From a virus, in IMG/VR virus record IMGVR_UViG_3300042691_048764, positions 1 to 58,370 of that record: a DNA stretch of 58,370 bases; one strand, written 5' to 3'. The stretch's first letter is position 1; the number at the start of each line of letters is the position of its first letter. Shown here in pieces: positions 4,059 through 6,482 of this stretch. The notes beneath the pieces were generated by a model, which was not told the DNA's origin, searched no databases, and saw only the letters and a program-made list of their open reading frames with translations. A program made the position numbers and the translations under genes.

Positions 4059-4064
4059 TTTTGC

Positions 4065-4085
4065 CCGAAATATTATATAAGTTTA
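4065..4085 (+). promoter_or_regulatory. early-type promoter (CCGAAA + TAnnTTTR)
   Basis: CCGAAA (4065-4070) is followed after 7 bp by TAAGTTTA (4078-4085), one mismatch from the Bacteroidota -7 element TAnnTTTG. The shared TGCCCGAAAT block also occurs before clpC at 9591-9600. It would drive the interrupted tRNA and the cREC gene. Confidence 0.4.
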
Positions 4086-4101
4086 TCAATAGAACAAAAA
4101 A

Positions 4102-4218
4102 GCAGGAGTGGTGAAAATGTCCCCAGTTAACGGGGGCCATAAGTTAGACACAGCCGGTTTCCGGAACCGGCCGGCACAGGGTAACCGAGTCTTGGAGGTG
4201 CGAGGCCTTCCTCCTGCA
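4102..4218 (+). tRNA. tRNA-like gene with a hairpin inserted in the D-loop
   Basis: A perfect 7-bp acceptor stem (4102-4108 with 4211-4217) is followed by T8 and a 3-bp D-stem GTG/CAC. An anticodon-type arm lies at 4153-4171, then a variable region of about 20 nt, and a T-arm GGAGG-TGCGAGG-CCTTC with discriminator A4218. It resembles type II (Leu-like) tRNAs. The D-loop is split: AAAATG and GTTAGA would join into a normal G18-G19 loop, but 23 nt (4120-4142) intervene and fold as CCCC/GGGG. The anticodon arm has a 19-nt span instead of 17. The best 7-nt loop is TTCCGGA with anticodon CCG (Arg), which does not suit a type II body. The T-loop is non-canonical. It may be a decayed, processed or regulatory tRNA-like RNA. 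No 3' CCA is encoded. Confidence 0.6.
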
Positions 4219-4233
4219 CAATTAATTTAAAGA

Positions 4234-4677
4234 ATGAACAGGATCTCAATATATCTTGATGACGTGAGAATACCGATCGAGCACCCCGAAGGTCAGACGT
4301 GGACCGTAGTTAGAAACTATGAAGACTTCGTCGAGATTGTGAGCTCAACAGGTCTAGATAGAATCGACCACATTTCTTTCGATCACGATTTAGATCGCTC
4401 CGCAACAGAGCACTTCATGCTGGAGACTCTAATAACTTATTCAATAGACTACTCTAAAATAAAAGAGAAAACAGGATTAGACGCCGCTAAGTGGTTAATC
4501 CTACACTCGATAGAAACGGGGAAGGACCTACCAAAGTGTTGGGTTCATTCTGCTAATCCAATAGGAACAGGACATATAATGGGTCACATTAACCTATACC
4601 TTAAAAAATGCAAGCTCCCCGAAAATTGCATAAGAGCTAAATGGAATCACACTAGATCCCAATCTACAAGTTTATGA
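4234..4677 (+). CDS. predicted cyclic-phosphate-processing receiver (cREC) domain protein
   Basis: 147 aa. YLDDVR (residues 7-12), SFDHDLD (48-54) and a late WVHSANPIGTGHI (103-115) are the pattern I associate with the inactive-receiver family named cyclic-phosphate processing receiver, predicted from comparative genomics to act in RNA repair on 2',3'-cyclic phosphate ends. The biochemical role of that family is a published prediction, recalled from memory. The gene starts 15 bp after the interrupted tRNA-like gene at 4102-4218 and overlaps the next ORF by ATGA. The position at the head of a tRNA island containing interrupted tRNAs makes a link to tRNA end processing attractive, but that is inference. 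Confidence 0.65.
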   Translation: MNRISIYLDDVRIPIEHPEGQTWTVVRNYEDFVEIVSSTGLDRIDHISFDHDLDRSATEHFMLETLITYSIDYSKIKEKTGLDAAKWLILHSIETGKDLPKCWVHSANPIGTGHIMGHINLYLKKCKLPENCIRAKWNHTRSQSTSL

Positions 4678-5442: not shown

Positions 5443-5446
5443 CATA

Positions 5447-5546
5447 GGTGAGCGCGAAGACGAAAGGCAACACAGCGTGATTGTGCGCACAGTACGCTTA
5501 AGCACGAGTAGAAACAAGGGAGGATTAGCTACCCTCCCGCCTCACC
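5447..5546 (+). ncRNA. structured RNA candidate, tRNA-like outline
   Basis: The ends pair as GGTGAG/CTCACC and continue as GCG/CGC after one bulged C, giving a closing stem of 9 bp. A 6-bp stem GGGAGG/CCTCCC (5518-5523, 5533-5538) sits in the T-arm position, and GCGT/ACGC (5475-5478, 5494-5497) in the anticodon position. There is no TTCGA loop and no clear D-arm. It is GC-richer than the flanking genes. It could be a degenerate tRNA or a stable RNA like T4 species 1 and 2, which lie in the T4 tRNA cluster. Confidence 0.4.
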
Positions 5547-5555
5547 AAAAATAAA

Positions 5556-5694: not shown

Positions 5695-5865
5695 AGTCAG
5701 GTGGCGAAAGGAGGGTGAAGTCCATCCTCGAGGTAGACGCAAATTGAGATAACAGAGCAGTGTGTCTGTCTTGGAGTGGACACATAATGCTACGCTGTGT
5801 TACACAGATTAACCAAGTGACGAGTGTATGCTCAATTTTTACAGGTTCGAATCCTGTCCTGGCTA
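5695..5865 (+). tRNA. tRNA-like gene with D-loop and anticodon-arm insertions
   Basis: 171 nt. Acceptor AGTCAGG (5695-5701) pairs fully with CCTGGCT (5858-5864) with one G-U pair. The T-arm ACAGG-TTCGAAT-CCTGT (5841-5857) is canonical and the discriminator is A5865. The D-stem is GCG (5704-5706) with CGC (5738-5740), and TGGCGAAAG plus GTAGACGC would make a normal Leu-like D-arm. About 22 nt (5711-5732, GAGG...CCTC hairpin) separate G18 from G19. The anticodon stem AAATTGAG/CTCAATTT (5741-5748, 5831-5838) encloses 82 nt with its own hairpins (TGTGTC/GACACA, CTGTG/CACAG). The anticodon cannot be assigned without knowing what is removed. Confidence 0.6.
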
Positions 5866-6189: not shown

Positions 6190-6270
6190 GCGGAAGTAGC
6201 TCATTTGGTAGAGCGATAGCCTTCCAAGCTATAGGTGGCCGGTTCGAGCCCGGTCTTCCGGTCTTCCGCT
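6190..6270 (+). tRNA. tRNA-Gly(TCC) with duplicated 3' acceptor strand
   Basis: Acceptor 5' strand GCGGAAG, D-stem GCTC/GAGC, anticodon stem ATAGC/GCTAT with loop CTTCCAA (anticodon TCC), and T-arm GCCGG-TTCGAGC-CCGGT. The 3' acceptor strand occurs twice in tandem. CTTCCGG plus T (6255-6262) directly follows the T-stem but leaves G1 opposite G72. CTTCCGC plus T (6263-6270) pairs perfectly. Using the first copy, the tRNA ends at 6262. Confidence 0.88.
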
Positions 6271-6379
6271 CACCCGATACGTGAGTGAAAGCAAGCAGCG
6301 TATCTCTAGTTAGGGTCTTTCAGCCAGTGAACTAGGGTCCGAACGTCATTGTTCGGTGAGAGTACCAGGAAACCTCTCA
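6271..6379 (+). ncRNA. structured RNA candidate between tRNA-Gly and tRNA-Arg
   Basis: Perfect stems follow one another: GATACG/CGTATC (6276-6281, 6299-6304), CTAGTT/AACTAG (6306-6311, 6330-6335), CCGAAC/GTTCGG (6339-6344, 6351-6356) and TGAGAG/CTCTCA (6357-6362, 6374-6379). An alternative closing stem CTCACC/GGTGAG (6269-6274, 6355-6360) also exists. There is no ORF, and the stretch is GC-richer than the coding regions. The family was not recognised. Confidence 0.45.
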
Positions 6380-6383
6380 TTTT

Positions 6384-6482
6384 GGTCTCATAGTTCAATG
6401 GATAGAACGACTGCCTTCTCGGTCTATATTGAAAAGTATTACCGAGAAGCAGTGGATCCAAGTTCGATTCTTGGTGAGACTA
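6384..6482 (+). tRNA. tRNA-Arg with 27-nt insert in the anticodon loop
   Basis: Acceptor GGTCTCA/TGAGACT, D-arm GTTC/GAAC, anticodon stem ACTGC/GCAGT (6410-6414, 6449-6453), T-arm CCAAG-TTCGATT-CTTGG, discriminator A6482. The anticodon loop is 34 nt instead of 7. Removing 6420-6446 leaves CTTCTAA, the standard Arg(TCT) loop for AGA codons. Removing 6419-6445 leaves CTTCGAA, Arg(TCG). The insert plus neighbours forms a 7-bp perfect hairpin TCTCGGT/ACCGAGA. At 27 nt it is far too short for a group I or II intron. Confidence 0.85.

Follow-up and report, generated by a model that had tools for sequence, protein, structure and literature searches.

A tRNA-derived, probably non-decoding RNA with a D-loop hairpin in a large T4-like phage

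Positions 4102-4217 (plus strand) of the 58,370-base virus record analysed here, which is called the window below, carry a tRNA-like RNA followed by A73 and C74 at positions 4218-4219, as can be read directly from the sequence. The element appears to encode a tRNA-derived and probably non-decoding structured RNA and to belong, by its architecture, to a large class of RNAs that phages build on a tRNA shell; on the comparison of sequences, the probability of this reading is about 0.65. The members of the class have their tRNA ends in common, namely the acceptor stem, a Leu-like D-arm, the T-arm and A73-C74, and these surround variable interiors. The near absence of anticodon arms across the class, together with the compensated hairpins and pairs, argues for a non-decoding structured RNA and not for a tRNA awaiting splicing.

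The phage to which the window belongs is large and T4-like. Many IMG/VR contigs, of up to 373 kb, encode terminases with 68-82% identity to its own; with the terminases of Tenacibaculum phages, Prevotella Lak phages and huge metagenomic phages it shares about 32-40% identity. The parts of the element are the following:

4102-4108 and 4211-4217, plus strand: acceptor stem, GCAGGAG/CTCCTGC, 7/7 pairs Watson-Crick
4111-4151, plus strand: Leu-like D-arm, a 35-nt loop on a GTG/CAC stem
4111-4113 and 4149-4151, plus strand: D-stem, GTG/CAC, 3 bp only
4117-4140, plus strand: D-loop hairpin, ATG-TCCCC-AGTTAAC-GGGGG-C-CAT, read directly and found by folding
4153-4171, plus strand: anticodon-like hairpin, GCCGGT-TTCCGGA-ACCGGC, with CCG as the apparent anticodon and a possible closure to 8 bp
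4172-4193, plus strand: variable region of 22 nt, in which a convincing long-arm stem is absent
4194-4210, plus strand: T-arm, GGAGG (4194-4198) and CCTTC (4206-4210) with one G-U pair, loop TGCGAGG

A sequence-only reading of the same DNA had proposed a tRNA-derived element with a hairpin inserted into the D-loop, and this description holds: the acceptor stem is perfect, as claimed, and the hairpin is both legible in the sequence and recovered on refolding. The CCCC/GGGG pairing lies, as described, within the 23-nt insert at 4120-4142 and may be extended outwards by ATG/CAT (4117-4119/4138-4140). The D-stem and the T-arm are likewise present, the former being short and the latter containing the G-U pair; the T-stem is paired at 5/5 positions and directly abuts the 7-bp acceptor stem. 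The proposed closeness to bacterial tRNA-Leu is true of the D-arm and of the D-arm only. The canonical tRNA T-loop is TTCRANY, and the T-loop of 4102 is indeed as unusual as had been noted, having G in place of U55. Folding recovers the acceptor stem, the D-loop hairpin, the anticodon-like hairpin and the T-arm; the z-score of the folding energy is only -1.6, so that the energy by itself is no proof.

The expected adjacent G18 and G19 are missing from 4102, where the insert separates the two guanines or else AG stands in their place. The first of these parses corresponds to the earlier claim that the insert stands exactly between the two guanines. In related elements the insert directly precedes an intact GG(T)TAGA; by homology, the preferable reading of 4102 would be the hairpin and then A-G, and the claim thus survives as one parse of two. 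The site of the hairpin matches that of hairpins in about 70 related elements.

At the anticodon position it is possible to draw a 6-bp stem and a 7-nt loop with U33, as would befit a decoding tRNA of an unusual kind that retains and tolerates its D-loop hairpin. Such a role is highly improbable. The anticodon loop is weak because its closure into an 8-bp hairpin is more stable by 2.1 kcal/mol, U55 is lost, and in the parse by homology A replaces G18. With a frequency of 0.66 per 1000, the apparent codon, CGG, ranks with the least used in the phage, making service as a tRNA-Arg unlikely.

The sequence-only reading had also suggested a search with and without the insert, and the outcome differed between the two forms. 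As encoded, 4102-4217 is called by neither ARAGORN nor Rfam (the latter also at E up to 5), and the other Rfam families have no match at the site either. When the 23-nt insert is removed in silico, ARAGORN calls a tRNA-Arg(ccg) of 95 nt at its default settings. The hairpin could thus be a short D-loop intron, the removal of which would give a working phage tRNA with the anticodon CCG. An insert also interrupts the anticodon loop of a tRNA-Arg(UCU)-like gene of this phage (6384-6482, listed below), and introns are reported from the tRNAs of Lak megaphages, where they are conserved and were called 'enigmatic' (Devoto et al. 2019, PMC6784885), and from 262 jumbo-phage genomes (PMC13037316). An intron is nevertheless unlikely at 4102. 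A canonical anticodon arm occurs in 0/56 complete D-insert elements among the matches listed, so that removal of the insert would yield no decoding tRNA in those relatives, and a hairpin that recurs where the anticodon arm is absent does not exist for the sake of being cut out of a decoding tRNA. The rarity of CGG, the T-loop without U55, and a variable region and D-arm unsuited to tRNA-Arg also count against it. Between the processed tRNA and the repurposed RNA that had been offered as alternatives, the relatives favour the latter, and the former retains the call of its spliced form.

The frequency of such scaffolds by chance was estimated from 60 dinucleotide-shuffled windows, in which tRNA-end scaffolds of 92-260 nt were counted. 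The shuffled windows contained 0.05 such scaffolds per window, none of them with a Leu-like D-arm. The real window contains three (4102, 5695 and 6384), with a Leu-like D-arm in 4102 and 5695. The other two are:

5695-5864, plus strand: second tRNA-like RNA, acceptor stem AGTCAGG/CCTGGCT, found by a structural scan
6384-6482, plus strand: tRNA-Arg(UCU)-like gene, its anticodon loop interrupted by a 27-nt hairpin insert

The element at 5695-5864, which the sequence-only reading had not listed, has the same design as 4102 and lies 1.5 kb away. Its D-arm reads GGCGAA-[hairpin]-GGTAGACGC, the hairpin being GAGGGTG-AAGTC-CATCCTC, and its 100-nt interior is without an anticodon arm. Folding predicts a tRNA shell that bears the D-loop hairpin and an 8-bp stem that leads to a multibranch at the site of the anticodon arm. 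Elements of this kind are carried by related phages. The D-loop hairpin recurs at 85-92% over 46-49 nt in several of them (e.g. L190, L305, L313 and L315), and the interior is unrelated to the interiors of phages with a similar hairpin. In 6384-6482, the insert pairs with the anticodon; ARAGORN, when introns are allowed, reports Leu(tag), and the body looks like that of tRNA-Arg. C74 is also carried by the tRNA genes of the window.

Some gene-free parts of the tRNA cluster deserve mention. The intergenic stretch 5555-5633 matches L233:994-1072 at 87% over 80 nt, directly 3' of a tRNA-like RNA there, and is matched in L172 beside another; judged from these alignments, it is probably another structured RNA. 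The stretches 5443-5550 and 6264-6383 are gene-free and look structured (e.g. GGTGAG...CTCACC).

Downstream of 4102, a cREC_REC gene (4234-4677, Pfam PF20274, predicted cyclic-phosphate processing) begins 17 bases past the tRNA-like RNA. The role proposed for the cREC domain is the processing of cyclic phosphates in RNA repair (PMC7824862). The cREC protein, used in a neighbour search, led to a single locus (L002), where no comparable element adjoins the gene, and consistent linkage between the gene and such elements was not found. The neighbour search with the DUF5856 protein gave no relative.

The class can be followed through viral contigs by its most common form, which combines an AGTCAGG-type acceptor with a CAGGTTCGANTCCTG T-arm. 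At least 353 scaffolds with acceptors of this type were found in 215 loci, seven of them within 5 kb of L140. The exact pattern for the T-arm and the 3' acceptor strand, CAGGTTCGANTCCTGYCCTGRCTA, occurs in at least 120 stretches of viral contigs, and the elements among the matches listed are mostly 68-190 nt long. In a bacterial and archaeal scan of one genome per species, the same pattern was present in only 8 contigs, 5/8 from Bacteroidota bins.

Sequence and covariation demonstrate that the predicted shell, comprising the acceptor stem, the D-stem, the T-arm and A73-C74, is under selection. When elements were sought by their D-arm and T-arm, without imposing acceptor pairing, all seven acceptor pairs were present in 66/71 elements, a set that includes 4102 and ordinary Leu tRNAs, and in none when the register was slid by 1-3. 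A search that did require acceptor pairing gave long elements with different, fully compensated acceptor stems, namely TGTAGAG/CTCTACA, ACTCAAG/CTTGAGT, GAGATAG/CTATCTC and TGACAGG/CCTGTCA, besides the GCAGGAG/CTCCTGC of 4102. A73 is kept in 236/250 and C74 in 247/250 cases, and positions 75-76 are variable.

The interior of these elements is, by the definition used (5 bp, a 7-nt loop and U33), demonstrably not an anticodon arm in most cases. The canonical arm is absent from 102/104 parsed AGTCAGG-type elements; it is present in 19/19 short elements with other acceptors, which are ordinary Leu tRNAs. The interiors are hypervariable, 136/189 having no relative in another locus in a set that includes some ordinary Leu tRNAs. 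Structure is retained in interiors that do have relatives. Subfamily A3, represented by five different sequences (L142, L172, L188, L233 and L449), has a hairpin of 5 bp with a 7-nt loop at the anticodon position. In its consensus fold 16/42 pairs are doubly changed and kept, and these compensated pairs span the acceptor stem, the hairpin at the anticodon position, a giant variable arm and the T-arm. For the anticodon position, a general stem closing off the interiors was found in 38% of cases vs 29% after shuffling; as this excess is barely above the shuffled level, such a stem is not claimed for the class.

Some loci hold further structures. A second, nested T-arm-like motif lies in the interiors of the tRNA-like RNAs at L123:2197-2315 (minus strand) and L120:12466-12579. 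The cultured Tenacibaculum phage pT24 (L259) has two near-identical stretches, 2290-2368 and 2657-2735, annotated as tRNA-Undet and having an odd anticodon hairpin.

In many members the predicted D-loop hairpin, too, is demonstrably a genuine element of the structure. The interrupted D-loop was sought in viral contigs as CAGGTGGCGRAAN{14,44}GGTAGACGC; there are at least 69 distinct inserts, with a mean folding energy of -9.5 vs -4.1 kcal/mol when shuffled. Ten distinct 8-bp hairpins are 100% paired, with double changes at 5/8 positions and a covariation of 0.689 vs 0.217; this subset was selected by folding, and the pairing figure is therefore inflated and partly true by construction, which does not apply to the diversity of sequence under the pairing.

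In the company of these elements, 4102 is a divergent member, recognised by the architecture of its sequence. With the class it shares the Leu-like D-arm, the paired acceptor stem abutting the T-arm, A73-C74, a length of >92 nt and a common genomic neighbourhood, and, as in the D-loop-hairpin subset, its hairpin lies 5' of the segment that corresponds to GGTAGAC. Unlike the main family it has a GCAGGAG acceptor and a GGAGGTGCGAGGCCTTC T-arm, and other long members likewise have different, fully paired acceptors. The class otherwise almost always lacks a canonical anticodon arm, and 4102, with its anticodon-like hairpin, is probably the single exception among the long elements with non-AGTCAGG acceptors.

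The comparison with homologous loci, which had been proposed as a check, was borne out in part: relatives have compensated D-loop hairpins, and a close homologue of 4102 was not found. BLAST against the collected related loci gave no match, and only short chance matches resulted from 4060-4260 against phage records and from 4102-4219 against 50 related records. The pattern GTGGTGAAAATGN{8,38}GKTAGACA had five matches in viral contigs, all chance coding sequence. Two patterns were fitted to the GTG/CAC D-stem; one, GTTAGACAC, had 17 matches and no real element, and the other, TGGTAGACAC, had 16 matches, including real D-insert elements in L449, L455, L456, L459 and L463, none of them close to 4102. 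With no close homologue and a divergent acceptor, T-loop and anticodon-like hairpin, 4102 belongs to the class by architecture only.

The same features could be those of a tRNA pseudogene that is in decay and has acquired a hairpin, for which the unusual T-loop, the weak anticodon loop and the failure to find a close homologue would be natural. Decay is, for all that, decidedly unlikely, as 4102 retains a perfect acceptor stem, a fully paired T-stem and A73-C74, and its insert occupies the site at which relatives have compensated hairpins.

If 4102 is the non-decoding structured RNA proposed here, it is possible to describe how such an RNA might work. The shell would direct tRNA-like processing, with cleavage by RNase P at the 5' end, trimming at the 3' end and CCA addition, and it would stabilise the transcript. 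The active part would then consist of the D-loop hairpin together with the variable interior. The most likely function is that of a tRNA mimic, which may occupy or mislead host factors that bind tRNA, for example the tRNA-cutting nucleases of defence systems. Nearly as likely, the shell may be a scaffold that presents diverse regulatory RNAs. A constant shell with a variable remainder fits the mimic, and the display platform fits nearly as well.

Several known RNAs invite comparison. Transfer RNA-Leu (RF00005) has the same D-arm, TGGYGRAA...GGTAGACRC, and the same geometry of acceptor stem and T-arm; the class differs in having no Leu anticodon and no regular long variable arm, and in its D-loop insert. 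Like these elements, tmRNA (RF00023) has tRNA-like ends and a non-tRNA interior, but the elements are much shorter and keep the D-stem, and the tmRNA model matches neither 4102 nor 5695. Rfam found one tmRNA in twelve related loci, at L142:1088-1533 (minus strand, 59 bits), where it adjoins a tRNA-like RNA. The bacterial Y RNA YrlA (RF02553) is a non-coding RNA with a tRNA-like module. Its layout is the reverse of that seen here, because the tRNA-like part of YrlA is internal and its ends form the Ro-binding stem, whereas the tRNA-like part of the class is terminal. RF02553 has no match at 4102 or 5695; its sole weak match in the region overlaps ordinary tRNAs, at 17.4 bits vs a cut-off of 69.

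The closest published precedent is the 'enigmatic introns' of the Lak tRNAs. The introns of Lak and jumbo phages resemble the present case in occurring in large phages, with a Bacteroidota host for Lak, and in over-long tRNA genes with conserved internal inserts. The Lak cases were described as decoding tRNAs with an intron, whereas here the insert is in the D-loop, the hairpins covary and the anticodon arm is usually missing. Lak-C1 itself carries long tRNA-scaffold elements (L414:1564-1721 and 2572-2674), as do metagenomic huge phages. The first of the Lak-C1 elements is tRNA-Gly(TCC)-like; its anticodon loop carries an insert of about 85 nt, and within this insert lies a T-arm-like motif.

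In the open-access papers searched, neither D-loop hairpins nor tRNA shells without an anticodon arm were found to be described. The class is apparently undescribed, and its novelty is provisional because open-access papers were what the search covered. Tentatively, at somewhat less than even odds, the observations may be combined into a broader proposal: large phages, mostly of Bacteroidota, would encode a diverse, undescribed class of non-decoding RNAs with a tRNA shell, a covarying hairpin at the D-loop (elbow) and hypervariable interiors, often several per genome, which would serve to display RNA effectors or, as decoys for tRNA, to counter host defence; 4102-4217 would be a divergent member.

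Phage tRNAs are usually explained as supplements for codon usage or as replacements for host tRNAs that have been cleaved. If hundreds of phage 'tRNA genes' cannot decode, the tRNA counts of large phages need revising. The class would also, if real, supply a great many compact, naturally occurring RNAs on a tRNA scaffold, the targets of which could be searched for directly, and the compensated D-loop hairpin offers a clear handle for annotation and experiment.
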